A model generated the notes under the pieces. That model searched no databases and was not told the origin of the DNA. It was given only the letters and a program-made list of their open reading frames with translations. This document shows, piece after piece, positions 1,895 through 15,306 of a stretch of DNA of 38,568 nucleotides. This stretch comes from Nitrosomonas sp. Its GTDB lineage: Bacteria > Pseudomonadota > Gammaproteobacteria > Burkholderiales > Nitrosomonadaceae. Position 1 is the first letter of the stretch, and the number at the start of each line of letters is the position of its first letter. The translations under genes and the position numbers were made by a program. The stretch is taken from contig JAJFJL010000161.1 of NCBI GenBank assembly GCA_021774055.1, positions 1-38,568 of the forward strand. Reading direction: 5' to 3'.

Positions 1895-2799
1895 TTAAAC
1901 ACCCCCATCTATTTCTATCACACTACCAATCACCGTAATTGCCTCTTCACTGCTGGCAATGTCAACGGCAACTCCATCCCGACTGAAGGTTCCTTCTTCT
2001 AGTTGCAATAAATAACCACTAATTTCTTCAGTAGTTGCAGGTCGTTGCAAGGTATTTTGAATCAGTGTTTGAATATAGTCACTATCACCTAATTGATTAA
2101 GATCGGATTGCTCTTGGAACCAATCAAAAAACACCTGTGCCTCAACATTATCCAGCAATGCTTGGCGACCAATTTGCCATTCTTCAATAGACACATCACG
2201 ATTAAGAAAAGTATTCACCAATCGCGCCATGATACTTTCATTATGATTACAGTTTCACCACTATCAAAAGCGATTGCCTCCGCATTAATTATGTTTAGCA
2301 TGGCACCATCATTTAAGTTGGTCACTTCTAAAGCATTATCTGCAGTTTCTAGATGAACATCAGCGCGACCATTTAACATCTGCAGCACATCAAAACCGGC
2401 ACCTCCATCAACATTTAAAGCTAAACCTAACGGTAAAAAACCACTATCATCAGCAGCGCTGCCAATCACCTCACGGTTGACATCTAAGCGTAAAATATTT
2501 GGATTATCAGCTAAACCAGCTAACAATTAATCTGCAGTTTTATCTGCTAAATCAGCTGCTTCGAGAAGGCTATGGAAAGCTGCCAAGATGTTCTCAATAT
2601 CTGTTTGCTGTGCATTTTGCACTGCATTAGCTTCCAGCTCTGTCAACTCTCTACCTAGCCAAGTCGTTACCAAATGATGAGCTATTGCCTCGGCCTCAGT
2701 ATGAGCAATTGCTAATGCTGGTTCATTATCAAAACGGATTAGCTCAATATCAGTCAATGTATCCACAGTGCCATCTTGATGTGTTAATACCACTATCAT
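1895..2799 (-). pseudogene. Broken DUF4214-type secreted protein, C-terminal remnant
   Basis: Three minus-strand segments (2799-2527, 2526-2215 and 2230-1895) form the tail of one protein. The first two are in the same frame, separated by a single TAA at 2527-2529: ADKTAD, stop, then LAGLADNPNILRLDVNREV. The last is joined by a frameshift near 2220-2240, where one frame ends GETVIIMKVSWRDW and the other enters at MARLVNTFLNRDVS. The repeated pattern LVNTFLNRDVSIEEW and IQNTLQRPATTEEISGYLL, ending in SSEEAI, is DUF4214-like. This domain is common at the C-terminus of calcium-binding type I secretion substrates. The 5' part is missing, and the remnant begins exactly where the IS4-type transposase ends (overlap at 2799), so insertion plus decay is the likely history. 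It is probably non-functional. Confidence 0.8.
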
Positions 2800-3653
2800 C
2801 AGTGTTCCCCAATAAGGTGCGTCCTCGGGACTAATCTGGCCACAAGGTCATCCATAAAGCTAATTAGAGACTTTCCAGTAATTATTGCGTTTTGAGTTGC
2901 CCGAATAGTATAGGAGCTTATACGCACAATTCTTTCCTGATAGAATAACGGATTCACAAACCGACCTTTCTTTTCAGAATCTTGCTCTCTTCTTTTGAGT
3001 TCTTCCGTGTACTTTTTGTCAGAGGGGTGGATTAACTCTGAGTCTTGTATTTTTGATACCTCTTCAAAAACACGCAATAGGTTATAACTCATTGCCGTAA
3101 GACGCATTTGATTCTTTAGCGAGTTATTATCTGAAGACCACGCTTTAACTTCTTTTAAGTTACTTTTACTGTTGTTGAATGATTTCTCAATTGTCCATCG
3201 TTTATAGTACAGCATGGCAATTGTTCCCGGATTGACAGAGTGAGGCAATGTGGTTACAAAACGGTAAAGTTTTCCTGTTTCTGGATCTCGATAATTGATG
3301 ATACTAAATCGGATGCCATTATTTTCATAAAGACTGTAGCTTTCAACTCCTGTATTTATTTTATGGCTGGTATCAAAGGGAATGGATTCAACAAAAGTGG
3401 CTACTAAATTTTCCTTTAAAACTGAAATCACAAAGTTTCCATGTCTTACTTGATGATTCCAGAAAATATAATCAGTTACGGCCTTATCATAAATATAGAG
3501 ACATTTCTGAGAAGGATCTTTGGTTCTGTTTTGCTTTTCTAGTTGATCACGCAGTGCTGGAATTTCATGATGCCTATGGGTTCCATTGGTGACCAGGCAA
3601 AAAGGTCTGAACAAGCCGTTTCTAAGGTTTAAGCTATAGAGTTCTGGGGACAC
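2799..3653 (-). CDS. IS4-family transposase, N-terminally truncated
   Basis: The 284-residue product carries the IS4 signature Y-x2-R-x3-E-x6-K exactly (YYKRWTIEKSFNNSK, about residues 148-162), which holds the catalytic Glu. The second-Asp region is visible as LYIYDKAVTDYIFW, followed by GNFVISVLKEN. The segment with the first catalytic Asp, normally in the N-terminal third, is absent. The frame opens with a GTG just after an in-frame TAA, inside the short repeat at 3639-3664. Family members are usually around 100 residues or more longer. It is therefore most likely an inactive, 5'-truncated copy. It overlaps the start of the DUF4214 remnant, which it has probably interrupted. No terminal inverted repeats could be defined. 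Confidence 0.85.
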   Translation of the reverse strand: MSPELYSLNLRNGLFRPFCLVTNGTHRHHEIPALRDQLEKQNRTKDPSQKCLYIYDKAVTDYIFWNHQVRHGNFVISVLKENLVATFVESIPFDTSHKINTGVESYSLYENNGIRFSIINYRDPETGKLYRFVTTLPHSVNPGTIAMLYYKRWTIEKSFNNSKSNLKEVKAWSSDNNSLKNQMRLTAMSYNLLRVFEEVSKIQDSELIHPSDKKYTEELKRREQDSEKKGRFVNPLFYQERIVRISSYTIRATQNAIITGKSLISFMDDLVARLVPRTHLIGEH

Positions 3654-3818: not shown

Positions 3819-4991
3819 CTAAAATGGCCCGGTTATCTCAAAAGTAATCCCATCTTCAGACTTGCCAGTTTTACCTCTTTGCGAACTAAAATAAAGTCTA
3901 GTTCCATCCGGGCTAAATGCAGGACCAGTTACTTCTGATTTTTTATGGCCAACCACTTGTAACAAAGGATATAAATCTCCTTGTTTTGGAATCACTACAA
4001 TTTGCATATTCCCTTGATCCTCTGCCACAAATAATTTACCCGCAGCATTGGCGGTAATATTATCTACTCCAGTTAATGGTGGCAGAATATGGAACGCAGC
4101 ATTATAGATTATGGTTAGCTCATTACGACGAATATCGTATGCCCAGACACGATCATCTCCTTTGGTAGTGAAATAAACCACTTCTTGGTGATACCAGATA
4201 CCTTCACCGCCGTTAAAAGAGCTGCTTTGCTTTATTTGTTTACGAGTTGGTGTCGTTACTGCTTGAGGGTCTGGTAGGCGATGCCAGCGTAACGCCCCTA
4301 TTTGACCACTAATAACTTCAGCCACTTCAAGATAACCATTATCTAAATCAGGATGACCAGCAGCATTGAATGAATTGCTGGTATAGCGATATAAACAACC
4401 ATCTGGCTCATCTTCAGTTAAATAAAGCTGTTGATTTACAGTATCAACCGCAACTGCTTCATGATTAAAGGTGCCTAATGTTGGTCTTAACTGTGCAGCT
4501 TTATTACCAAAAGGGTCACATTCCCAAACTTGACCATTATCAACTTCTTCGCAGGATAACCAGGTCTGCCAAGGTGTATGGCCACCGGCGCAATTACGAC
4601 TGGTATTGGTTAGAATTGAATAAGCATCAACCAGTGTTCCGCGATAGTCAAATCGTAGTGCACCAACACCACCGGCTTGCTTGTTCATCTCACTGTTTGA
4701 AACATAAACCCAACCCCTATCTGGAGTTGCAAAGGTGGCCCCACCATCAGGTTCAGCGTGCCAGTTATAACCGAACAAATCTTGGCCAGAATAAGCGACG
4801 ATACGACTACTAAATCCTTTCGGTAAGCGTACGCCATTCTCATCTGGTGGTAATAGTGAACCAATCTTATCCTGAGTTAATGCAGCTTTTATCGGTGTTG
4901 AAACTAGATGATTGCCAACAAAAGCACCTACTCCTAGAAAACTATAGCGCAGCAATTCACGCCGCTTAATATCAAACGATTTATTTATCAT
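3819..4991 (-). CDS. PhoX-like (DUF839) Tat-exported protein
   Basis: The product has 390 residues. The N-terminus FDIKRRELLRYSFLGVGAFVG has twin arginines before a hydrophobic stretch, as in a Tat signal, so export to the periplasm is likely. The body matches the PhoX/DUF839 family: GGATFATPDRGWVYVSNSEM, then NCAGGHTPWQTWLSCEE, where the Cys of the first motif is a cofactor-site residue in characterised PhoX phosphatases. A beta-propeller-like run follows (VYFTTKGDDRVWAYD, LFVAEDQG, FSPDGTRLYFSSQRG). It is shorter than classical PhoX alkaline phosphatases, so phosphatase activity is not assured. It is the last gene of the operon starting at 9714 and overlaps the 6-phosphogluconolactonase gene by 4 bp (ATGA), which implies coupled translation. 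Confidence 0.85.
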   Translation of the reverse strand: MINKSFDIKRRELLRYSFLGVGAFVGNHLVSTPIKAALTQDKIGSLLPPDENGVRLPKGFSSRIVAYSGQDLFGYNWHAEPDGGATFATPDRGWVYVSNSEMNKQAGGVGALRFDYRGTLVDAYSILTNTSRNCAGGHTPWQTWLSCEEVDNGQVWECDPFGNKAAQLRPTLGTFNHEAVAVDTVNQQLYLTEDEPDGCLYRYTSNSFNAAGHPDLDNGYLEVAEVISGQIGALRWHRLPDPQAVTTPTRKQIKQSSSFNGGEGIWYHQEVVYFTTKGDDRVWAYDIRRNELTIIYNAAFHILPPLTGVDNITANAAGKLFVAEDQGNMQIVVIPKQGDLYPLLQVVGHKKSEVTGPAFSPDGTRLYFSSQRGKTGKSEDGITFEITGPF

Positions 4992-5695
4992 TGTGTAGCA
5001 TCTGTCTCAAAGATAATAATAGGTGATTTAGTTTGTTGGCGTAACCAAACAAATGGAATGTTTGAATCAGGAGTAGCTCTGAGCAAACTATCAAGCAAAT
5101 GTCGTTTGTTCTTACCAGTGACAACTAAGACAATAGTTTGACTATTGGCCAAGGCATTTAAACTAAGACTAATGCGGGACGAGGGAGCAAAAGGTTTATC
5201 CGATTCTGTACATAAACCGGTGGTTGCTACCAAATCAGGCTGCATCCCTGGAAATAACGAAGCAATATGACCATCTTCTCCTAGACCGAGAATAGATAGA
5301 CTAAATGGCGCTGGTAATTTAGCAAGACGTTGCTGCACGGTTTCAATAGCTTGTGCTGGATTATCATGAGCAGTTTTAAGGCCAACAAACTCAGTTGTTT
5401 CTGGCAAATATGACAAAAAACATTCTGTTACCAAACGTTGATTAGAATCAACATGGTTAGTTGCAACCCAACGTTCATCACTCAAAGTAACTGTTACAGC
5501 TTGCCAAGGTAGTGTTTGACGAGCCAGTACTGGTAAATAATGACGTGGGGTTTGTCCACCTGGTACTACTAGACTAATCCTGGTGTTTTTTATTAACGCT
5601 TCACGTAATACAGCTGCAGAGAAATCTGCAAACTCAGCCACTAACTGATTTAGATCTTTACAGGAATGACGCTGTATTAATTCACTAGTGAGCAT
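4988..5695 (-). CDS. pgl: 6-phosphogluconolactonase
   Basis: This enzyme hydrolyses 6-phospho-D-glucono-1,5-lactone to 6-phosphogluconate in the oxidative pentose phosphate or Entner-Doudoroff route, in the cytoplasm. The 235-residue length is typical of the DevB/Pgl type. Diagnostic motifs are present: VPGGQTPRHYLPVLA near residue 44, LSDERWV with a nearby NHVDSNQRL, and LGLGEDGHIASLFPG near residue 136. Its start overlaps the end of the HAD gene by 19 bp and its end overlaps the PhoX-like gene by 4 bp. It is unusual to find pgl without zwf or edd neighbours and inside an apparent sugar-acid operon. Here it may serve a lactone of another sugar phosphate; that is inference. Confidence 0.93.
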   Translation of the reverse strand: MLTSELIQRHSCKDLNQLVAEFADFSAAVLREALIKNTRISLVVPGGQTPRHYLPVLARQTLPWQAVTVTLSDERWVATNHVDSNQRLVTECFLSYLPETTEFVGLKTAHDNPAQAIETVQQRLAKLPAPFSLSILGLGEDGHIASLFPGMQPDLVATTGLCTESDKPFAPSSRISLSLNALANSQTIVLVVTGKNKRHLLDSLLRATPDSNIPFVWLRQQTKSPIIIFETDATQ

Positions 5696-6318
5696 AGATC
5701 AGAAACAGTCACGACACCTGCTGGAAAAGGATTGTTATCACCAGGCAACACCCGCCCAAGGAAGGCAATTCCATTGGCTTGTGCACTTTCATAATCGACT
5801 AAGGCATCACCAATCATCAATACTTTTTCAGGAATCAATGAATGGGTAGATAGAAATTCGGCTATCAAAGTTTGCTTGAGCGTTGGCGCGCCTCGAACGT
5901 CGGTAAAATAGGATGCCAAGCCACGTCGTTCAACAATAACCTTAAGTTCAATCTCTGGTGTGCCTGATGCTACAAACAATGGGATGCGAGCAGATTGTTG
6001 CTTAATTAACGTTTCAACACCGGCAACCGCTTTGCATGCAATAACAGCTTCAACTACCAATTTAGAAAACTGTTGATCTAGTGCTTGTTCTTCACTAGTG
6101 CTTAAGGTTGGTTTATGCAATAAATGCTGTTGGAAATAATGAAATTTACGATAGCGTGACATGCCTCCATTCTTAGTATGATAATCAACCACGGCAGCAA
6201 CTACTTCTGCACCATAAGCCTGATAAAGTTCAGCAAATGCTTGGGTTTTTATCTCACCAGACTCAACCACCACGCCATCAAAATCAAAAATAATTGCATG
6301 CCAATCCATTGCGTTCAT
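5677..6318 (-). CDS. HAD-superfamily phosphatase
   Basis: This is a 213-residue haloacid dehalogenase-type hydrolase. Motif I is IIFDFDGVVVES (Asp12 nucleophile, Asp14 acid/base), motif II is LFVASGTPE, the motif III Lys probably sits in PTLKQTLI, and motif IV is VLMIGDALVDYESA. The region between motifs I and II is a helical cap of the beta-phosphoglucomutase/phosphoglycolate phosphatase type. In this operon it would most simply remove phosphate from a sugar-acid phosphate before nucleotide activation, as KdsC does in the Kdo pathway. It is not KdsC itself, which lacks such a cap. The true substrate cannot be read from sequence. It follows the epimerase gene by 5 bp and overlaps pgl. Confidence 0.88.
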   Translation of the reverse strand: MNAMDWHAIIFDFDGVVVESGEIKTQAFAELYQAYGAEVVAAVVDYHTKNGGMSRYRKFHYFQQHLLHKPTLSTSEEQALDQQFSKLVVEAVIACKAVAGVETLIKQQSARIPLFVASGTPEIELKVIVERRGLASYFTDVRGAPTLKQTLIAEFLSTHSLIPEKVLMIGDALVDYESAQANGIAFLGRVLPGDNNPFPAGVVTVSDLCSLVN

Positions 6319-6323
6319 ATGTG

Positions 6324-7265
6324 TTATGCCCGGTTATCTGAGATTGACGGCGTAGCATCATCATCTTCACCGGCATGGCGCAGTTCTTTATGAATTTCTC
6401 TGAGACAATCTAACAACCCTTGCCCCAGGTCAACATGTTCATTTAACACCAATTTTCTACCAATACGTGGCTGGAAGGCATAAGGAGTTACTTCATAGTG
6501 ATGTACCGCATTGGCCTCATCAAAGTTTAATTTAACAGGCCACGGCATGATTTCAGAGATCATAGTCATCACATCCTTGATACGCAATCTCTCCTGACCG
6601 GTAAGAATTAAATGCCGGTTAGCAAATTCAGGAGCAAGTATTTGTACACTTAAACGTGCGGCATCTTCAACATGAATATACTCTCGAATAGCTTCACCGC
6701 TACCTTTGTAAGTAATAGAATGCTGATCAATAGCTTCAAACAGCATACGAAAAATACCGTTACGTTTGTCAGCACGTCGGCCATAAAGAGAGCCGTAACG
6801 TAAGATGCTATATTCCAATCCATAGCGATCATGATAGGTTTCAGTAAAACGTTCAGCGGCTTGCTTACTGGCACGATAAAAAGAACCTGATTCAGAATAA
6901 ACATACACACTACTAGCAAATACATAGCGCCTAACACCGGCAAGATGTGCTGCTTCAAGCACATGCATATTACCTAAGACATTAATTGATGCTGTCGCAA
7001 TCGGTTTATTATGTGCTTCATCAATGTCTGCAATGGCAGCAAAATTATAGATTACATCCGCACCCTCGGCGGCAGCTATCACCTGCTCTAAATTCATAAT
7101 GTCGCCAACAATCATTTCCTGATCAGGCCGCTGATAAGGCGATGGTGTACGATCAAACAAATGTACCTGGTAGCCAGCATCTGATAAAGCATCTGCTACA
7201 TAGCTACCAAGAAAACCACTAGCACCAAAAACCACCGCTATTTCACTAGATTCTGCTCTATTCAT
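6324..7265 (-). CDS. NAD-dependent sugar epimerase/dehydratase
   Basis: The 313-residue product is an extended short-chain dehydrogenase. It has the nucleotide motif VVFGASGFLGSYVAD at residues 11-25, an acidic Asp after the second strand (HLFDRT), NFAAIAD, the catalytic triad region FASSVYVYSESGSFYRASK (Tyr-x3-Lys) and a downstream REYIHVEDAA typical of nucleotide-sugar epimerases. Substrates of this group are usually NDP-sugars; the exact one is unknown. It overlaps the preceding dehydrogenase gene by 8 bp and is followed 5 bp later by the HAD gene, so all three are probably translated together. The acidic C-terminal tail (HAGEDDDATPS) is not part of the fold. Confidence 0.9.
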   Translation of the reverse strand: MNRAESSEIAVVFGASGFLGSYVADALSDAGYQVHLFDRTPSPYQRPDQEMIVGDIMNLEQVIAAAEGADVIYNFAAIADIDEAHNKPIATASINVLGNMHVLEAAHLAGVRRYVFASSVYVYSESGSFYRASKQAAERFTETYHDRYGLEYSILRYGSLYGRRADKRNGIFRMLFEAIDQHSITYKGSGEAIREYIHVEDAARLSVQILAPEFANRHLILTGQERLRIKDVMTMISEIMPWPVKLNFDEANAVHHYEVTPYAFQPRIGRKLVLNEHVDLGQGLLDCLREIHKELRHAGEDDDATPSISDNRA

Positions 7266-8196
7266 TATTGATTAAACCTGCTTCAATTAATCCTTGTAAT
7301 AAATTCTCGGCGACTTCTAGCTCCATTCTCTGGCGAGCTTCTCTAGCTAACGAACCTATGTGTGAAGTTAAAATAATATTATCACATGCTAACAATTGGC
7401 CTTGATACGGCTCTTGTTCAAACACATCTAATGCGGCTGCCGCTAATTGCTCTGTACATAAAGCATGATTCAATGCAGCTTCGTCGACCAGTCCGCCACG
7501 TGCCGCATTAATCACCATGGCACTTGGTTTCATTTGCGCTAAGGCTTTGCTGTCCAATAAATGATGATTATCTTTACTATAAGGTAGGTGCAGCGTAACG
7601 ATATCTGCTTGTGTCAATAACTGCTCAAATGAGACTAAGCTTACGTTCGCAGTTGCTTCTGTAACATACGGATCATACGCAATAACTTTTGCATCAAATG
7701 CTTGACATAACCGTGCAACCCGCCGACCAATGTGCCCCAAGCCAACAATACCAATAGTTTGTGCTGCCAACAAATGTCCCTGTTGACGTGGCCACTCACC
7801 TTGGCGCAATAATTTATCGGTATTACAAATTCGTCTAAGTAACGCTAACATTAACCCTAAGGTTAATTCAGCAACCGCTTGTGCGGGTGCTTCTGGGGTA
7901 TTGGAAACAGCAATTTTATGCTCCTCTGCTGCAGCCAAATCAACACTATCCATACCAGCACCACAACGCGCCACTACTTTTAACTGCTTAGCCGCAGCAA
8001 ATACTCTTGCCGTCAACGGTTCAATCCCTGCAATCAAACCAACACTATCATCAGCTAATAAATCAATGATTTCTTGTTCGGTTAATTTACGTCGATAAGG
8101 ATTGCTGACACCCGTCATCCCCTGTTTAATCAAACTTTGAATTGCTGGATTATTGTCAGTATCGAAAGTTGATGTGGAAATAACAAATTTACTCAT
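7258..8196 (-). CDS. D-2-hydroxyacid dehydrogenase, phosphoglycerate dehydrogenase-like
   Basis: The 312-residue product interconverts a 2-hydroxyacid and a 2-oxoacid with NAD(P). The Rossmann motif is TIGIVGLGHIGRRVA (GxGxxG). The catalytic Arg lies in MVINAARGGLVDE, the Glu in DVFEQEPY and the His in NIILTSHIGS, so all three catalytic residues are present. The N-terminal part carries VARCGAGMDSVDL, typical of PGDH-like members. There is no ACT or ASB regulatory domain, so it is unlikely to be the housekeeping SerA. Lying between an aldolase for 2-oxo-3-deoxy acids and a sugar epimerase, it probably acts on a related 2-oxo or 2-hydroxy acid. It overlaps the aldolase gene by 4 bp (ATGA). Confidence 0.9.
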   Translation of the reverse strand: MSKFVISTSTFDTDNNPAIQSLIKQGMTGVSNPYRRKLTEQEIIDLLADDSVGLIAGIEPLTARVFAAAKQLKVVARCGAGMDSVDLAAAEEHKIAVSNTPEAPAQAVAELTLGLMLALLRRICNTDKLLRQGEWPRQQGHLLAAQTIGIVGLGHIGRRVARLCQAFDAKVIAYDPYVTEATANVSLVSFEQLLTQADIVTLHLPYSKDNHHLLDSKALAQMKPSAMVINAARGGLVDEAALNHALCTEQLAAAALDVFEQEPYQGQLLACDNIILTSHIGSLAREARQRMELEVAENLLQGLIEAGLINNE

Positions 8197-8954
8197 AATG
8201 CGGCTCTAATATTATGCATATGGTTACGACAAACAGAATCAAGAATACGAATATCCAAAGCATAGCCAAGAAAGTTAAAGCCTGCTTTGATACGTTGCTG
8301 TAAAGCTTCAGGATCTGGTTCAATCACATGAATCCCTCCCGGTTTATTGGCTCGCTGACCAGCTGCAAGAACAGTTTCTATCGCAGCTTGCACCTCAGGA
8401 TGATTCAGTTCACCAGGCATGCCCATTGAACCAGACAAATCATATGGGCCAATAATATAAGCATCAATCCCAGGAACTGCCAAAATAGCATCAATCTCAT
8501 GTACCGCATCCACATGTTCAATCATAGCAACTACAACCGCATTATTTGCTAACCACTGTTGATATTCTGGAAAACTGGCACCATAACCTTGCGCACGAGC
8601 AAGCCCAACGCCCCGTTGACCACGTGGTGGGTAATAAACACCCTGTACGGCGGCGTGAGCATCGGCAGCTGATTTGACCATTGGTACCATAACACCAGTG
8701 GCACCGGCATCCATCACTCGCTTAATTTGATCTGGATGATTAGAAGTTAAACGAACAATCGCTGGGCATCGTTGTTTATCTAGAACTTGAATAATAGTTT
8801 GAATTTCACTTAATTCCAGAACGCTATGTTCCATATCTAATACCAACCAGTCAAATCCGGCTGCAGCCATAATCTCAGCAATCGCTGGATGTCCCAGCGT
8901 AATCCAAGAACCGATAGTTAGTTCAGATTGTGCTAATTTTGCTTTTAATTGCAT
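8193..8954 (-). CDS. HpcH/HpaI-family class II aldolase
   Basis: The 253-residue product belongs to the metal-dependent pyruvate aldolases, which make or break 2-oxo-3-deoxy acids such as 2-keto-3-deoxyglucarate or 2,4-dihydroxyhept-2-enedioate. The conserved His is in WLVLDMEHS and the Arg in PAIVRLTSN. YYPPRGQRGVG is the family loop. Metal ligands are the Glu of MIEHVDAV and the Asp of IIGPYDLSGSMG. It begins 10 bp after the KdsB-like gene and overlaps the dehydrogenase gene. Family members are often catabolic. Next to a cytidylyltransferase that activates 3-deoxy-2-ulosonic acids, a synthetic direction is equally plausible: pyruvate plus an aldehyde giving an ulosonic acid. That role is inference; the family is secure. 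Confidence 0.92.
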   Translation of the reverse strand: MQLKAKLAQSELTIGSWITLGHPAIAEIMAAAGFDWLVLDMEHSVLELSEIQTIIQVLDKQRCPAIVRLTSNHPDQIKRVMDAGATGVMVPMVKSAADAHAAVQGVYYPPRGQRGVGLARAQGYGASFPEYQQWLANNAVVVAMIEHVDAVHEIDAILAVPGIDAYIIGPYDLSGSMGMPGELNHPEVQAAIETVLAAGQRANKPGGIHVIEPDPEALQQRIKAGFNFLGYALDIRILDSVCRNHMHNIRAAL

Positions 8955-8964
8955 ATTAGTTCCA

Positions 8965-9714
8965 TTAATAACGAGTAAGCAAAGGATCGGCCTGCATTAA
9001 CTCTGCGACACGTGCCAAATCTTCCTGTGTATCCACAGCTTGTGTATTGAATGAAGTGTTAACCATTTTTACTTGATAACCATGTTCTAACAAACGTAAC
9101 ATATCAACAGATTCTAATTGTTCTAATGGAGTTGGCGGCAAATTGGTGTAATGAAATAAGGTGTCACGCCGGAAAGGAATAATACACACTTGTTTATAAG
9201 CATCAGTCTGTGCAAAGTCAGATTTAGCTAAAGTAGGAATTGCTTGACGTGACATGTAAATAGCATCGCCCTTTTGATTCATAACCACTTTAATAGTATT
9301 AGGATCACGATAATCAGTTTCATGGTCAATTTTACGTACTAAATTCACACAACCTAATTGCGGGTCGTCCTTAAAAGGTGCAACTGCCGCATCAATCATA
9401 TCTGGATGTGTCATCGGCTCATCGCCTTGCACCATGACAATTAATTCTGCATCAATATTAGCAACTGCTTCTGCAACACGATCACTGGCACGCTCATGAG
9501 TATCCGCTGTCATCAACACTTTGGCACCAAAACCTTCTGCGGCCTGACGGATTTCCTCATCACAAGTTGCAATATAGGTAGCGTCCAACGCTGGACTTAG
9601 TGCTACCCGTTTATAAACATGCTCTAACATTGAACGACCTAATAACTCTGCCAATGGTTTGCCTGGAAAACGTGTTGAACCCATGCGGGCAGGTATAACT
9701 GCTATTATTTTCAT
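8965..9714 (-). CDS. kdsB: KdsB-family CMP-ulosonate cytidylyltransferase, divergent
   Basis: The 249-residue product is in the KdsB family, which transfers CMP from CTP to 3-deoxy-D-manno-octulosonate (Kdo). The N-terminal nucleotide loop IAVIPARMGSTRFPGKPL is typical, as are VMVQGDEPM and LEQLESVDMLRLLEHGY. One difference stands out: the usual H-x-SGTDR region reads THERASDRVAEAV here, so the SGT residues are replaced. That suggests a paralog with another ulosonic acid substrate, although a housekeeping role cannot be excluded without the rest of the genome. It heads the operon. A good ribosome site (GAAGGAAGGA) lies about 10 bp before the ATG. No kdsA, kdsD, kdsC or lpxK is nearby, which also argues against the ordinary Kdo pathway. 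Confidence 0.87.
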   Translation of the reverse strand: MKIIAVIPARMGSTRFPGKPLAELLGRSMLEHVYKRVALSPALDATYIATCDEEIRQAAEGFGAKVLMTADTHERASDRVAEAVANIDAELIVMVQGDEPMTHPDMIDAAVAPFKDDPQLGCVNLVRKIDHETDYRDPNTIKVVMNQKGDAIYMSRQAIPTLAKSDFAQTDAYKQVCIIPFRRDTLFHYTNLPPTPLEQLESVDMLRLLEHGYQVKMVNTSFNTQAVDTQEDLARVAELMQADPLLTRY

Positions 9715-9833: not shown

Positions 9834-9876
9834 AAAGTGTAAACCACTTTGAAGATAACATGAAGGATGCTGATTA
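9834..9876 (+). repeat. Dispersed repeat related to the 33.3-33.5 kb arms
   Basis: AAGTGTAAACCACTTTGAAG followed by ATGAAGGATGCTGATT is shared with 33315-33362 (inverted) and 33478-33515 (direct). It ends on the stop codon of the tolC-like gene at 9874-9876, so it lies flush with that gene's 3' end. Confidence 0.65.
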
Positions 9877-11232
9877 TTTGTTAATCTTAACAGTGTGATC
9901 ATAGACAAAGTTGTCCGCAATATTCTGCAAATCCTCCAGAATCAAGGTGCCAGAGGCTAACTTCAGGCGTAAGTAGGCAAGCAAATAATTGTAACGAGCC
10001 AGTGAAAGTTCACCTTGCGCTAAAAACAATTGTTGCTGTGCATCTAACAAGTCAAGGTTAATTCTAACCCCGCCTAGAATACTTTTCTCGGTTGCTTTCA
10101 CTAACAAATCAGCAGATGCTACCGCTAGCTCTAAAGATTCTATCCTCTTGATACTGCTTAACAACAGGTTATATTGTCGACGTAATTCAAGCAACACACC
10201 ATTAGTTATTGCATTAAGATCTGATTCAGCACGCGCATGATTTGCAACTGCTTGACTAGTCACCGCATTAACTCGACCACCGGCGTAGATAGGAATATTT
10301 ACTTCAACGCCGATACTAGCCAAATTAACATCCCGATTTGCAGTTACAAAAGAGGCGGATTTATTTCTACTAAGACTGGCGACCAGTTCAACCCGTGGCG
10401 CATGACCGGCACGACGCATGTTAATTTCTTCTTTACTAGAAATCACAGTATGCCGTTGCATCACTAATTCCGCATTACGATTAAGTGCAAGCTCTTGTAA
10501 AGAGTCATAGTCTGAAATTGGCAAAACTCGGATCTTAGTTGCTTTAGACAAAGACTGAAGGTGTGTTATTTCTCTACCAACAATTGCGGCTAATTCCATC
10601 TGTGCACCAGCTTGTTCATCATAAGCTTCTATCACACGTGCTTGTACTAGCGCATATTGTGATTGTGTTTCAAGCACATCGGTAACAGTACCCTCCCCCT
10701 GCGCCAACATTTGTTCATTTACTTGCTTACGTTCTTTGAGGGTCTCACTCTGTGCTTCAACTAAATAAACATTGTCCTGTGCCAATAATACCGCAACATA
10801 AGCTTCAACCAGCCGCACGATTAATTGCTGGCTATGGCCAGTAAAACGAGCACGACTAGAATTACTATCAGCAACACCTTGCTTATAACCAGCAACAGCC
10901 TCCATATTAAGCAATGGTTGACGTAGCGATAAGGTGCTAACTTTACTATCAAAATTTAATGGTGTGGTACCAGCTCCGGCAAATTTCTGAGTACCAGTGT
11001 TTTTACTTTGTGCATGCGTAATTGACAAATTTGGCAACAACCCTGCTAAACCAACTGCTTTAGCTTGTTCACCAGCTTCATTCTCATGCACCGCTGAACG
11101 ATAAATCGGGTCATTCTCTAATGCTGATTCATAAGCTTCCAACAAACTTAGCGCATGCAGTTGACCTGCAGGCAAAAGAAATATAGCCGCCAACAGCAGT
11201 ATAGAAATAAATGAACGGATATTTAGCATCAT
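9874..11232 (-). CDS. TolC-family type I secretion outer-membrane protein
   Basis: The 452-residue product has a signal peptide (hydrophobic ISILLLAAIFLLPAGQLHA, cleavage near residue 27) and then LSLLEAYESALENDPIYRSA, the usual TolC/PrtF opening. Long helical stretches with repeat structure follow (ERKQVNEQMLAQGEGTVTDVLETQ and, later, EKSILGGVRINLDLLDAQQQL), as in the two-fold repeated TolC barrel-tunnel. It would form the outer-membrane duct of the exporter. It starts 2 bp after the HlyD gene stop, in the order ABC, HlyD, TolC that is standard for PrtDEF-type systems. Its stop codon touches a dispersed repeat at 9834-9876. Confidence 0.93.
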   Translation of the reverse strand: MMLNIRSFISILLLAAIFLLPAGQLHALSLLEAYESALENDPIYRSAVHENEAGEQAKAVGLAGLLPNLSITHAQSKNTGTQKFAGAGTTPLNFDSKVSTLSLRQPLLNMEAVAGYKQGVADSNSSRARFTGHSQQLIVRLVEAYVAVLLAQDNVYLVEAQSETLKERKQVNEQMLAQGEGTVTDVLETQSQYALVQARVIEAYDEQAGAQMELAAIVGREITHLQSLSKATKIRVLPISDYDSLQELALNRNAELVMQRHTVISSKEEINMRRAGHAPRVELVASLSRNKSASFVTANRDVNLASIGVEVNIPIYAGGRVNAVTSQAVANHARAESDLNAITNGVLLELRRQYNLLLSSIKRIESLELAVASADLLVKATEKSILGGVRINLDLLDAQQQLFLAQGELSLARYNYLLAYLRLKLASGTLILEDLQNIADNFVYDHTVKINK

Positions 11233-11234
11233 TG

Positions 11235-12587
11235 TTACTCTTCACTGAGCGATGAATGAACTCGATCAAGAATCGGCTTAAATAGATAATTCATCAATGA
11301 TCGCTCTCCAGTTTTAATAAAAATTTCCACTGGCATACCAGCACGTACCTGATGGTCGATTAACAATGGAATTCCTTCTGGCGCTACTTTAACTTGTATG
11401 TTGTAGTATGGCTCCCCAGTTCTATCATCAGTCAAACGATCGGCAGATACTCGGGTAACAACACCTGGTATATTTGGTGTTTTATTTTGATTAAAAGCAG
11501 AGAAGATCAAGTCAACTGGTAACTCTGGGTGAACTTTATCAATCAAATGCACCGGCACTTCTCCTGAAATAACCAGCATATCTTCGCTTGGCACCACATC
11601 CATCATACGAAACCCTGGACTAACAACTCCACCCTGGGTAAATATATCCATCCCCACCACAATACCCTCGACAGGTGCTTTTACTAGCACATTTGCCAAC
11701 TCAAAATCTTGCCCGACCAAGCGGCTATGCAAGGCCTCTGCTTCACGCTGAATATCTGATAACTGCTGACGAATATCCTTTTGATTTTCTTCTTGACGCT
11801 GTACACGGCGTAGTTCTAATTCAGAAATCTGACGTTGTGTGCGTCCAATATTGCCACTTATCTCAGAAATTTCGCCAGTTAATTGCGCATGCAATTGTTT
11901 TTGATCAAACAACCGATTTCGTGGAACGAAGCCATCTTTTGCTAATTCACGCAAACTGTCCAACTGTTGCTGCATAAACTTCATTTGTTTTTGTTTGCTA
12001 GTTTTTAACGAGTTCATCGCTTGCAATTGGACTGCCAAACCTGCAACATTTTCATCTAGTGCACCCATTTCATGCTGCAAAGATAATCTACGTGAGCTGA
12101 ACAATTGTTTTTGTAAAATTAAGTTATTAACTACCCGTGGATCATCTTTAATTAACAATAACTCAGCTGGAAAAACAATTTCATTTTTATCATCACGCTC
12201 AGCAATTAAACGTGCTTCAACCGCGCGTGCCGAATAAAGTTGTGTCCGAGTAATCTCTGCCTGTGCTTTAACCTGAACATCATTCATCCGTACTAGCACT
12301 TGACCTGCCTGGACGCTCTCGCCCTCCTTGACCAAAATCTGATCAATCGTACCACCGGTTTGATGTTGAACAGCTTTACGGTTACTAGATACAGTGACAG
12401 TACCAGATAACGGCACACCTTTATCAAGTGGCGCAAGGAACGCCCATAATAAAAACCCACCAAACCCGGCTAGTACAATCCACCAACCAATCCGCGCATG
12501 CACCGTATCATCGGTGTCAACTTGATCCAAGTCCTCAATAGGAACGACATCAGTGATTGCTTCTTTTTGTTCACCCAAAGGCTTCAT
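11235..12587 (-). CDS. HlyD-family type I secretion adaptor
   Basis: The 450-residue membrane fusion protein links the inner-membrane ABC exporter to the TolC-like duct. A short acidic cytoplasmic tail (residues 1-31) precedes one membrane helix, IGWWIVLAGFGGFLLWAFLAP (about 33-53). The lipoyl-like half motif is HQTGGTIDQILVKEGESVQAGQVLV, followed by a long coiled-coil region with LRELAKDGFVPRNRLFDQKQ. The second half motif is VKAPVEGIVVGMDIFTQGGV. The C-terminal RAGMPVEIFIKTGERSLMNYL is typical of HlyD/PrtE. It is 18 bp after the ABC gene and 2 bp before the tolC-like gene, a clear operon. Confidence 0.94.
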   Translation of the reverse strand: MKPLGEQKEAITDVVPIEDLDQVDTDDTVHARIGWWIVLAGFGGFLLWAFLAPLDKGVPLSGTVTVSSNRKAVQHQTGGTIDQILVKEGESVQAGQVLVRMNDVQVKAQAEITRTQLYSARAVEARLIAERDDKNEIVFPAELLLIKDDPRVVNNLILQKQLFSSRRLSLQHEMGALDENVAGLAVQLQAMNSLKTSKQKQMKFMQQQLDSLRELAKDGFVPRNRLFDQKQLHAQLTGEISEISGNIGRTQRQISELELRRVQRQEENQKDIRQQLSDIQREAEALHSRLVGQDFELANVLVKAPVEGIVVGMDIFTQGGVVSPGFRMMDVVPSEDMLVISGEVPVHLIDKVHPELPVDLIFSAFNQNKTPNIPGVVTRVSADRLTDDRTGEPYYNIQVKVAPEGIPLLIDHQVRAGMPVEIFIKTGERSLMNYLFKPILDRVHSSLSEE

Positions 12588-12605
12588 TTTTATTCCTGTT
12601 TTTAA

Positions 12606-14372
12606 TCAAACGACATTGACTGTTGTAGATGCCGCTTGATTCTGTGCGGAAGGTTGTTTTGCTAGCTGTGCTTGTTGTACTTGCTTTTGTTGCTTAGCAA
12701 GCTCAGCCATAACTTGATCAGTTGGGCCAAATAATTTTGCCGCACCTTCATGTAACACCAATAATTTACCAGTGATACCAATAATACTGGTGCGATGAGT
12801 TATTAATACAATAGTTTTGCCACGTTGGCGTAAATCAACGATAGCAGATAACAATGCTTGTTCACCAGCATCATCTAGGTTTGAATTTGGTTCATCTAGC
12901 ACAATTAACGATGGATCGTCATACATCGTACGCGCCAAACCAAGTCGTTGTTTTTGACCGCCAGAAAGTCCGGCTCCGCCATCACCTAAAAGTGTGTCAT
13001 AACCTTCTGGCAAATTTAGAATCATCTCATGTACGCCAGCACGCTTAGCAGCCAAAATTACTTTTTCTGCATCAACTTCACCAAAGCGTGCAATATTGTC
13101 AGAGACAGAGCCGCTAAATAATTCAATATCCTGCGGTAAATATCCAACATGTGGTCCAAGCTCATCTTTATTCCACTGATAAACATCTGCACCATCCAAA
13201 CGTACCTTACCGGAAGCTGCTGGCCATACACCTACCAATAGTCGCGCTAAAGTTGATTTACCAGATCCACTAGGCCCAATCACACCTAGTATTTCACCTG
13301 CTGCAAGAGAAAAATTCAAACCTCTAATCACTGGAACTTTACAACCAGGTGGTGCCGCCACAACATTTTCAACAGCTATTACACCACTAGGTTTTGGCAG
13401 GGCTAATCCTTCTTCACGAGCTGGATTGTTTTCTAATAGCTTAGTTAATCTTTCATAAGCACTACGAGTACTACCAAATTGCTTCCAGACACCAATCAAT
13501 TGCTGCAACGGTGCAACCGCTCGGCCCAATAGAATAGAACCTGCAATCATCATGCCAGGAGAAATTTGGTTATCTAATACTAGCAATGCACCAAGCCCTA
13601 ACATCAATGATTGCAATGCAACCGTAGTTGGCTTGCTGATAGCATTAATCATTCCCGCTTTTTCACTGGCTTCTGCTTGCAAGCCAAGGAATTTGCTATG
13701 TAATTTATACCAGCGCGCTTGTATATTGGGTAACATACCCATAGCCTCAATAACTTCAGAGTTACGTAAGTTATTAGATGCTAAAGTAGTCGAGGCAATC
13801 GCCATAGCATTTGCATCATCCAGTGGTTTACGTGATATTTTTTCATTAATATAAGCCAATAAGACTAACAATGAAGTGCCAAATATGGCAAACATTCCCA
13901 ACCACGGATGAAACATAAAGATAACCAGTAAATAAATTGGAAACCAAGGTGCATCAAAAAAAGCAAATAAAGCATTTCCAGTTAAGAACTGGCGCAAACT
14001 GGTAAGATCTTTTAGCGCCTGTCCAGCATTGCCATCACCTTGTTTCAAGCTTTGCTCAAAAGCAGCGTTATACACACGTTTATTAAGCTTCATATCAAAC
14101 TGCGCGCCAACTCTAATCAATACAAAACTACGCACATATTCTAATGCACCCATAATAATGTAAGCACCTAACATGATTATGGTCAGCATTAGTAATGTCA
14201 TTTCATTACGGCTAGTCAAAACACTGTCATACATTTGCAACATATACAAAGCTGGCATCAACATTAGCATATTAATTACCGCGCTAAATGCACCAACTGT
14301 GCGAAAAGTACGTTTAAAACTACGGAGTATTTCCGTAATCTCACTTTGAGGAAGTTTAAAATTTGGTTTCAT
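12606..14372 (-). CDS. Type I secretion ABC transporter (PrtD/HasD type)
   Basis: The 588-residue product is a fused membrane-ATPase exporter. The first half holds about six membrane helices, with FFDAPWFPIYLLVIFMFHPW typical of the PrtD/HasD group. The second half has Walker A GVIGPSGSGKSTLARLL, a Q-loop in YLPQDIELFSG, the signature LSGGQKQRLGLAR, Walker B SLIVLDEPNSNLD and an H-loop LITHRTS. No N-terminal C39 peptidase or CLD domain is present, so it should export substrates with an uncleaved C-terminal signal, such as RTX proteins or adhesins. It is the first gene of the secretion operon. A Crp-type site lies 71-86 bp upstream of the ATG. The C-terminal Gln/Ala-rich tail (QQKQVQQAQLAKQPSAQNQ) is low-complexity. 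Confidence 0.95.
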   Translation of the reverse strand: MKPNFKLPQSEITEILRSFKRTFRTVGAFSAVINMLMLMPALYMLQMYDSVLTSRNEMTLLMLTIIMLGAYIIMGALEYVRSFVLIRVGAQFDMKLNKRVYNAAFEQSLKQGDGNAGQALKDLTSLRQFLTGNALFAFFDAPWFPIYLLVIFMFHPWLGMFAIFGTSLLVLLAYINEKISRKPLDDANAMAIASTTLASNNLRNSEVIEAMGMLPNIQARWYKLHSKFLGLQAEASEKAGMINAISKPTTVALQSLMLGLGALLVLDNQISPGMMIAGSILLGRAVAPLQQLIGVWKQFGSTRSAYERLTKLLENNPAREEGLALPKPSGVIAVENVVAAPPGCKVPVIRGLNFSLAAGEILGVIGPSGSGKSTLARLLVGVWPAASGKVRLDGADVYQWNKDELGPHVGYLPQDIELFSGSVSDNIARFGEVDAEKVILAAKRAGVHEMILNLPEGYDTLLGDGGAGLSGGQKQRLGLARTMYDDPSLIVLDEPNSNLDDAGEQALLSAIVDLRQRGKTIVLITHRTSIIGITGKLLVLHEGAAKLFGPTDQVMAELAKQQKQVQQAQLAKQPSAQNQAASTTVNVV

Positions 14373-14442
14373 CTAAAAAGCATTGAAGAATACTGAATAT
14401 TGATAGGGGTAGAATAATTGACAGGCAGAGAATACATTAAAG

Positions 14443-14458
14443 CGTGACTGATGTCACA
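14443..14458. promoter_or_regulatory. Crp-type operator upstream of the type I secretion operon
   Basis: CGTGA-CTGATG-TCACA matches the TGTGA-N6-TCACA Crp consensus at 9 of 10 arm positions. It lies in the 118-bp gap between the Crp/Fnr gene and the ABC gene. The neighbouring regulator has the Crp-like recognition helix SRETVTR, so it is the obvious candidate to bind here. I could not assign a convincing -10 or -35 element. Confidence 0.72.
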
Positions 14459-14490
14459 CTTTATTTTATCATTTGATCGATGTAACTTGA

Positions 14491-15306
14491 CTATTCTTTT
14501 TTGGGTCGTTGTTCTAACTTAGGAAGTTTCTTTTGTTGCAATAATTCTTGCAGTCTATCTGGACTAATAATAATTAAGCGATGCACTTCTTTACGTACGA
14601 CTCCTTGTTGCACTAACATCAGCAGTGTTCGTGTTACAGTTTCACGGCTGGTATTAATCATATTGGCAATATCTTGATGCGTCGGCATATCTTCTACTAA
14701 TTCCACCTGTTCTGCAGTTTTTTGTTTCATAAAAGCTAATAAGCTTACAATCCGTTTAGCAGCATTACCAATACTAAGCAAAGAACGAAATTTGTAATTT
14801 CGCTGATTTTTCTCAGCTAAGTATCGTTGTATCTTAGCTGCAACAGAAGGTGTATTAGAAAAAAGATGTAATGCAGTTGCACCTGGCAATAATGCAATTA
14901 GAACATCCGTCAGTGCCACTACAGATGACATGCTAGCACTACGATTAATTAATGATGTTTCCCCCATAAAATCACCAGGAGATAACAAGCCAAAACCAAT
15001 CACCTTACCTTCGTCATTCATATCAAATAGTTGCAAACTACCAGAAAGCAAAAACAATAATTCGTTATTGGCGACACCTTGTTTTAATACAACATCTTGC
15101 CGACTATAACGGCGGATTGTTAATTCTTTTTTGACCCGCGCCATTTCAGCAGCAGATAATTGCGCCAACAAAGGAATACTACGCAGCTTAATGGTTAAAT
15201 TAACCTTGCTGGCAGAGTTGGCCGAGATCTCAGATACATCTGGCGGCATAGATGAAATTAAAGCATCATCCACAGATATTTGTGGTTTTATATTTTTACG
15301 TGACAT
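14491..15306 (-). CDS. Crp/Fnr-family transcriptional regulator
   Basis: The 271-residue product has an N-terminal extension of about 45 residues, then a cyclic-nucleotide-binding-type barrel (LLFLLSGSLQLFDMNDEGKV, then GLLSPGDFMGETSL). A linker helix and a C-terminal winged helix follow, with MPTHQDIANMINTSRETVTR. The recognition helix RETVTR matches E. coli Crp RETVGR. By eye, the Arg of the cAMP phosphate-binding RS/TA motif is replaced (ASMSSVV), so cAMP binding is doubtful. There is no N-terminal Cys cluster as in Fnr. It is 8 bp downstream of the SDR gene and upstream of the secretion operon, whose leader holds a matching operator. Confidence 0.92.
   Translation of the reverse strand: MSRKNIKPQISVDDALISSMPPDVSEISANSASKVNLTIKLRSIPLLAQLSAAEMARVKKELTIRRYSRQDVVLKQGVANNELLFLLSGSLQLFDMNDEGKVIGFGLLSPGDFMGETSLINRSASMSSVVALTDVLIALLPGATALHLFSNTPSVAAKIQRYLAEKNQRNYKFRSLLSIGNAAKRIVSLLAFMKQKTAEQVELVEDMPTHQDIANMINTSRETVTRTLLMLVQQGVVRKEVHRLIIISPDRLQELLQQKKLPKLEQRPKKE

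Follow-up and report, generated by a model that had tools for sequence, protein, structure and literature searches.

The operon and its conservation

We analyzed a stretch of 38,568 nucleotides from Nitrosomonas sp. (contig JAJFJL010000161.1; hereafter, the window), which corresponds to contig C70 of a 256-contig metagenome-assembled genome that is 84% complete. The window carries an operon on the minus strand whose first gene encodes a KdsB-like enzyme, a relative of the cytidylyltransferases named for 3-deoxy-manno-octulosonate (Kdo) (Table 1). An earlier sequence-only reading had described seven minus-strand open reading frames (ORFs) with short overlaps and gaps at this locus, and we reproduced their coordinates and spacings: gaps of 10 bp (kdsB/hpaI) and 5 bp (SDR/HAD) and overlaps of 4 bp (hpaI/2HADH), 8 bp (2HADH/SDR), 19 bp (HAD/pgl) and 4 bp (pgl/phoX). 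The family labels that it gave to the seven genes agree with Pfam as well (PF02348, PF03328, PF02826/PF00389, PF01370, PF13419, PF01182 and PF05787, respectively).

Table 1. Genes of the operon, listed from its first gene
Product	Length (aa)	Position	Strand	Remarks
KdsB-like CMP-ulosonate synthetase (putative)	249	8965..9714	-	first gene of the operon; PF02348 166.5 bits
HpaI/GarL-type class II pyruvate aldolase	253	8193..8954	-	PF03328 129.2 bits
D-2-hydroxyacid dehydrogenase (2HADH), phosphoglycerate dehydrogenase type	312	7258..8196	-	PF02826, PF00389
Extended SDR, NAD-dependent sugar epimerase/dehydrogenase type	313	6324..7265	-	PF01370 149 bits
HAD-family phosphatase	213	5677..6318	-	PF13419 56 bits
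6-phosphogluconolactonase (6PGL)-family protein (pgl)	235	4988..5695	-	PF01182; TIGR01198 157.5, cut-off 124.45
PhoX-like protein, accessory	390	3819..4991	-	PF05787 108.2 bits

The aldolase belongs to the HpcH/HpaI class II family: it exceeds the cut-off of PF03328 and most of its length aligns to solved aldolases. By sequence, its closest solved relatives are named 4-hydroxy-2-oxoheptanedioate, 2,4-dihydroxyhept-2-enedioate and 2-keto-3-deoxy sugar aldolases, and it passes none of the cut-offs of the equivalog models. The best solved relatives of the 2HADH are phosphoglycerate dehydrogenases. The SDR has the Tyr and Lys of the YxxxK motif aligned in its match to 6wjb and reaches the cut-off of none of the 25 NCBIfam models listed (of 27). 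The HAD phosphatase carries a DxD motif and matches the sugar phosphatase TM_1254 weakly (E = 5.9e-6).

We compared the operon across 61 genomes, several of them incomplete, comprising the genome of the window, 36 genomes of the same genus and 24 genomes from other families of the order. One strong match to the KdsB-like gene was found in each of the 37 genus genomes (69–84% identity in the 36 relatives), and the best matches in the 24 other-family genomes are 32–39% identical. Among the 36 relatives, 31 loci were read with long flanking sequence. The KdsB-like gene heads the set in all 31 loci, pgl is present in 30 of them, and 30 have all six genes in the order kdsB-hpaI-2HADH-SDR-HAD-pgl, the exception (L043) running into N. 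Conservation of the gene order in relatives, on which the sequence-only reading had staked its case, therefore holds, and the arrangement is not a product of chance, because the complete order recurs in nearly every locus read. The same reading had counted phoX in the pathway; this is not borne out, since phoX follows the six genes in only 5 of the 31 loci. The core set is the KdsB-like gene, the HpaI-type aldolase, the 2HADH, the extended SDR and the HAD phosphatase, usually with the 6PGL-family gene. The latter may be a true pathway member with a role beyond that of 6PGL in the pentose phosphate pathway. In L089 and L090, two loci from other genera, no match to pgl was found, but genes of the PGL family occur close to distant forms of the module in L087, L122 and L162.

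In a sample of 399 genomes across the order, matches at E ≤ 1e-48 were found in 16 genomes: 11 of the genus (including that of the window), two of other genera of the same family and three others. In two of the genomes outside the family (G352 and G363), the aldolase gene adjoins a 47–48% identical KdsB-like gene in polysaccharide-like surroundings. In the third (G212), the 38% match represents an ordinary KdsB, adjacent to which is a presumed KpsF gene.

A KdsB-like subfamily with replaced substrate-motif residues

The KdsB-like protein scores above the cut-off of the subfamily model NF009905 (308.8 against 255) and also passes NF003952, both models being named 3-deoxy-manno-octulosonate cytidylyltransferase. 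It scores below the cut-offs of the kdsB equivalog models (TIGR00466, 151.9 against 155.2; NF003948, 174.5 against 281). The sequence-only reading had looked to a second, canonical kdsB elsewhere in the genome, but none was found: the operon copy is the sole KdsB match in this 84% complete assembly. That reading would have been abandoned if its enzyme were the only kdsB of the genome and active on Kdo, and the first half of this is what we observed. Seven genus genomes present a second KdsB match, which is weak and partial (26–34% identity over up to 117 residues) and was not counted as KdsB.

We aligned 137 rows, consisting of 70 of the Nitrosomonadaceae type, 47 others and 20 canonical KdsB proteins. 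The Nitrosomonadaceae type is defined by more than 62% identity to the window protein and not by taxonomy, and the rows are not independent, as genomes of the genus occur in both collections used without deduplication between them. The residues K19, D98, D228 and R156 are invariant in all 137 rows, and the protein has the CTP_transf_3 fold with the catalytic Lys and the two metal-binding Asp, whose role in KdsB is described in PMC3149649.

The residues of two other motifs are not conserved. The His and Tyr of RHxGxYxYR, and the Glu and Gln of LEQLR, which we take to be a further KdsB motif, are found in all 20 canonical rows and are replaced in all 70 rows of the Nitrosomonadaceae type. Position 175 is His in the former and Gln in the latter, as it is in 46 of the 47 other rows, the exception being the ordinary KdsB of L091. 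At position 179, the canonical Tyr is replaced by Ile (69 rows) or Met (one row), and the canonical EQ of positions 204–205 by DM. The canonical S/T-G-T of positions 75–77 is RAS in these rows. The sequence-only reading had the SGT motif replaced by ASD, which is off by one: H-x-S-G-T-D-R reads H-E-R-A-S-D-R in the window protein, so that S-G-T aligns with R-A-S. The stretch RHIGVYAYR is called a substrate-binding motif of KdsB in a docking study (PMC7717453).

A quick tree of 80 rows was built from 15 of the 70 Nitrosomonadaceae-type rows, 45 others (without L116 and L118, duplicates of L088 and L087) and the 20 canonical KdsB as outgroup. Between the canonical KdsB, with L091 beside them, and the new KdsB-like group lies a branch (SH-aLRT 100) whose length of 1.77 calls for caution about long-branch effects. 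The 15 Nitrosomonadaceae rows form one clade (SH-aLRT 99), and the replacements described above are common to a subfamily from several phyla.

Genes of the operon recur beside these distant relatives. We scanned one genome per species, confirmed 178 KdsB-like relatives and retained the best 80, so that the counts that follow are no census. Outside the Nitrosomonadaceae type there were 44 loci, 39 of them at least 8 kb long, and a match was defined as a tblastn hit at E ≤ 1e-8 anywhere in the locus. Matches to the aldolase were found in 36 of the 39 loci, to the SDR in 27, to the HAD phosphatase in 23, to the 2HADH in 18, to Gfo/Idh in 12 and to PGL in two. Aldolase, 2HADH, SDR and HAD were all matched in eight loci (L127, L132, L135, L136, L140, L152, L155 and L162), whose titles name SAR86, Halodesulfovibrio, Desulfovibrio (twice), Desulfovibrionaceae, Omnitrophota, Desulfobulbaceae and Micavibrio; about 5 kb separate the 2HADH from kdsB in L135 and L136. 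The module also exists in a second flavour, found in Sulfuricella, Prochlorococcus and others, where SDR and HAD give way to Gfo/Idh and often SIS genes. Seven such loci (L116, L117, L118, L120, L123, L125 and L126) carry Gfo/Idh and 2HADH genes, with SIS in five of them. KdsB proteins of this flavour that are 66–83% identical to that of L088 (L116 being the same locus) occur in Sulfuricella, Prochlorococcus, Sphingomonas, Gemmatimonadetes and others, and the flavour has perhaps spread horizontally. In another locus (L168, about 11475–12231), the SDR match covers only 160 residues and its 5' part is missing before the HAD match, which may reflect a deletion, a frameshift or an assembly fault.

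Lipid A, Kdo and sphingolipid genes in the genus

We searched the same 61 genomes with family models of lipid A and Kdo enzymes. WaaA was found in none of the 37 genus genomes and in all 24 other-family genomes, and the same holds for LpxC, by which we judged the presence of lipid-A-based lipopolysaccharide (LPS). KdsA over the cut-off was found in 0/37 and 23/24 genomes, respectively, the one miss (G042) being 68% complete. The canonical Kdo pathway, recognized by KdsA together with WaaA, is thus found in no genome of the genus. In contrast, the exporter LptD is present in 36/37 genus genomes (the miss, G004, is 75% complete) and in 24/24 of the others. In another seven genomes of the family, including two from other genera, the KdsB-like gene is present and LpxC was not matched; three further outsiders all have LpxC. 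It is unlikely that LpxC and WaaA were overlooked, because the family models were positive in all 24 outsiders. Across 14 named control genomes, matches numbered three for WaaA, four for LpxC, two for LptD, three for LpxK and nine for KdsA (four over the cut-off).

The sequence-only reading had noted that no standard Kdo genes are present in the window. This extends to the whole 84% complete genome for WaaA and for KdsA over the cut-off; KdsC and KdsD were not searched. Two weak matches to the KdsA model in this genome were read as DAHP synthases and rejected as KdsA: one scores best to DAHP synthase models, though below their cut-offs, and the other, for which no model scan was made, sits between ORFs that are presumably hisC and tyrA.

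The distribution of serine palmitoyltransferase (SPT), which we used as the marker of a sphingolipid-replaced outer membrane, is the reverse of that of LpxC. With the E. coli BL21 protein as query, SPT was found in 35 of the 37 genus genomes at E ≤ 2.9e-125 (the misses, G003 and G019, are 76% and 91% complete) and in none of the 24 other-family genomes at E ≤ 1e-60. The SPT of the genome of the window exceeds the cut-off of NF047599 (585.7 against 500), and AasR, CerR, a putative acyl carrier protein (an 84-aa ORF) and SPT follow one another there (L236). Among the 35 genomes, SPT is 16–56 kb from the operon in 10, 0.57–1.6 Mb away in four (assuming a circle) and on another contig in 21; in the five genomes assembled in one or two contigs, it lies near the operon in one. 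Nitrosomonas eutropha is reported to have SPT and, for 13 or more of the 17 genes of the Caulobacter sphingolipid cluster, good orthologues (PMC9386255 and PMC11324152).

One gene weighs against the loss of lipid A. A homologue of LpxK is kept in 36 of the 37 genus genomes (that of the window is without it) and in 22 of the 24 outsiders, and on its face this retention speaks for lipid A. The bit scores in the genus are mostly below those of the outsiders. The P-loop GNxxxGGxGKT is kept in the six distinct outsider genes read, whereas each of the 25 genus copies read (L265–L269 and L271–L290) has other residues in place of GN and GG, with GKT left in 16. These sequences make a loss of kinase activity, or a repurposing, possible. 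In partial agreement with our results, PMC3087551 reports only lpxK of nine Kdo2-lipid A genes in Nitrosomonas europaea and only lpxA of the nine in Nitrosospira multiformis.

A putative ulosonic acid pathway and its surroundings

In many relatives, the operon lies among genes for glycan synthesis and export. A divergent protein of about 420–440 aa (U427) is encoded before kdsB, within the 3 kb read, in 25 of the 31 genus loci, and in 30 of the 33 species-scan loci that are 8 kb or longer. U427 has 549 homologues at E ≤ 1e-5, and those among the best 120 that name an organism are from Nitrosomonas, Nitrosospira, Nitrosovibrio or Nitrosomonadaceae. It presents no match in Pfam and no sequence match in the PDB. 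In its predicted model (pLDDT 77, pTM 0.81) U427 has a GT-B fold, the closest folds being UDP-GlcNAc 2-epimerases and then glycosyltransferases. WaaA and the Kps transferases (KpsC/KpsS) are not among the 50 structural matches listed for it, which excludes nothing. One locus (L229) presents a run of U427, an FkbM methyltransferase, a GT2, an O-antigen-ligase-like protein (PF04932) and two methyltransferases. In L089 and L090, the neighbours of the operon are LptF, LptG, a GT2, U427, a nucleotidyltransferase resembling MobA and a lipid kinase of the DAGK family that has a GGDG motif. An O-antigen-ligase-like gene is also near the operon in L089, and in L180 the operon is about 7 kb from LptF/LptG. 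Against the PDB, the MobA-like and DAGK neighbours match only TTHA0179 and generic diacylglycerol kinases. Neither U427 nor the O-antigen-ligase-like gene was matched in the 39 loci outside the Nitrosomonadaceae type.

A CMP-activated ulosonic acid other than Kdo, as the sequence-only reading had proposed, is likely, given the conserved gene order, the lack of WaaA and of KdsA over the cut-off in all 37 genomes and the replaced residues of the substrate motif; the parts of the proposal that did not survive are phoX, the reading of the SGT motif and the second kdsB. The sugar would probably belong to a glycolipid that replaces LPS rather than be an optional surface sugar, because the genus lacks LpxC and WaaA and has LptD and nearly always SPT. 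Ceramide is the best candidate for the anchor, since SPT occurs where LpxC is missing, and vice versa. We thus consider, with a probability of roughly 0.58, that the operon makes a CMP-activated non-Kdo 3-deoxy-2-ulosonic acid for a lipid-A-free, Lpt-exported glycolipid, probably built on ceramide.

The steps of such a pathway can be proposed from the enzyme families, and we infer their order. The HpaI-type aldolase would join pyruvate to a sugar-derived aldehyde to give a 2-keto-3-deoxy acid. The SDR and the 2HADH would prepare or modify the aldehyde or the aldol product, perhaps adjusting its stereochemistry, and the HAD phosphatase would remove a phosphate. The KdsB-like enzyme would then activate the acid with CTP, and the resulting CMP-linked acid would supply the sugar for the inner region of an LPS substitute, attached to the lipid standing in for lipid A. 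The neighbouring GT-B protein U427, as a candidate transferase, the GT2, the methyltransferases and the O-antigen-ligase-like protein may complete the glycolipid, which the retained Lpt machinery would export. We considered heptulosaric acid, sugars of the KDG type and octulosonic isomers as the product, and the evidence decides for none of them.

The operon might instead serve only an acidic sugar of an O-antigen-like or capsular polysaccharide, unrelated to any replacement of lipid A. The modules of other phyla, which lie among methyltransferase, Gfo/Idh and SIS genes (in the two cases tested, in LpxC-bearing genomes), would fit this explanation, as would the methyltransferases and the O-antigen-ligase-like gene that flank the operon in L229. 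However, polysaccharide loci are typically variable, whereas this operon is found in every genus genome in a near-constant order, and its position beside or near LptF/LptG in L089, L090 and L180 also speaks against this explanation, which we regard as unlikely.

It is quite improbable that the operon makes Kdo itself, with the aldolase condensing D-arabinose and pyruvate and the KdsB-like protein as a diverged but Kdo-specific enzyme. Pyruvate aldolases accept several aldehydes, and the protein is the sole KdsB of the genome and passes two models named for Kdo. Yet WaaA, the Kdo transferase, was found in none of the genus genomes, the His and Tyr of the substrate motif are replaced, and the SDR and 2HADH would be left without a clear role. 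A catabolic or housekeeping operon for sugar acid breakdown or the pentose phosphate pathway, with the KdsB-like enzyme incidental to it, is most improbable: HpaI/GarL aldolases are mostly catabolic and the 6PGL exceeds its TIGR01198 cut-off, but the KdsB-like gene comes first in all loci read, pgl is unmatched in L089 and L090, and in other phyla KdsB-like genes are again accompanied by aldolase, SDR and HAD.

The proposed pathway to a non-Kdo acid resembles the Kdo pathway (KdsD-KdsA-KdsC-KdsB-WaaA) in ending with a KdsB-family synthetase with the same catalytic residues, in its HAD phosphatase and in serving the outer membrane. It differs in having neither WaaA nor KdsA over the cut-off, in forming the C–C bond with an HpaI-type aldolase, in its additional SDR and 2HADH, and in the replaced substrate-motif residues. 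With the Leg, Pse and Neu nonulosonic acid pathways it shares a sugar-modifying SDR, an aldol-type condensation and CMP activation, but the operon has neither a NeuB-type synthase nor a NeuA-type enzyme, and a KdsB-type enzyme instead. Sphingomonads without LPS have sphingolipids in its place, as proposed here for Nitrosomonas. Their glycolipids carry short uronic-acid chains, whereas the CMP-ulosonate and ligase-like genes of Nitrosomonas suggest a core and longer chains. Some sphingolipid-forming bacteria, such as Sphingomonas koreensis, are without LPS according to PMC11324152.

Another parallel is the Caulobacter locus for ceramide phosphoglycerate (CPG2). In published descriptions, CPG2 supports survival without LPS (PMC11324152, PMC12275187), the ceramide kinase has a GGDG motif (PMC10331486), a cytidylyltransferase makes CDP-glycerate (PMC12275187) and second copies of LptF/LptG lie beside the ceramide genes (PMC11324152). 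By family and position, the gene set of L089 and L090 resembles the phosphosphingolipid locus of Caulobacter described in PMC11324152, in its DAGK-family kinase, MobA/CofC-like nucleotidyltransferase and LptF/LptG. Ceramide genes are likewise found in both Nitrosomonas and Caulobacter. The KdsB-like operon, the GT-B protein, the GT2 and the O-antigen-ligase-like protein are not mentioned for Caulobacter in the parts of these sources that were read. In L089, the DAGK-type lipid kinase (12610–14664), which lies near LptF/LptG and the operon, carries a fused fatty acid desaturase domain and is possibly a ceramide hydroxylase-kinase. Among the literature matches listed, we found no work uniting Nitrosomonas, the loss of LPS, sphingolipids and this operon.

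A globally important family of ammonia oxidizers thus keeps LptD without LpxC, WaaA or KdsA and has, nearly always, SPT together with a putative dedicated CMP-ulosonate operon. If our interpretation is true, Lpt can serve a glycolipid other than lipid A in nature, these bacteria constitute a natural test case for the exchange of LPS for sphingolipids, and the KdsB subfamily, which is also found in Desulfovibrio, Prochlorococcus, Nitrospina and others, has a new substrate. More tentatively, the Nitrosomonadaceae could have swapped the whole lipid A–Kdo unit for a ceramide-anchored core with a non-Kdo ulosonate, with U427 replacing WaaA and Lpt being kept, which would constitute an undescribed analogue of LPS.

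The surroundings of the operon in the window differ from those in many relatives. Type I secretion genes (9874–14372) occupy the place of U427 and the glycan genes: TolC and HlyD genes, assigned by Pfam, are the upstream neighbours of kdsB, and the ORF at 12606–14372 is, from its sequence, presumably an ABC ATPase. A homologue of U427 (P0142), located outside the window, may be this genome's own copy. At the other end of the operon, the region 1895–3653 contains short ORFs as well as a transposase-like one (PF01609; below the cut-off for the IS4 family), and a recent rearrangement beside the operon end is possible.

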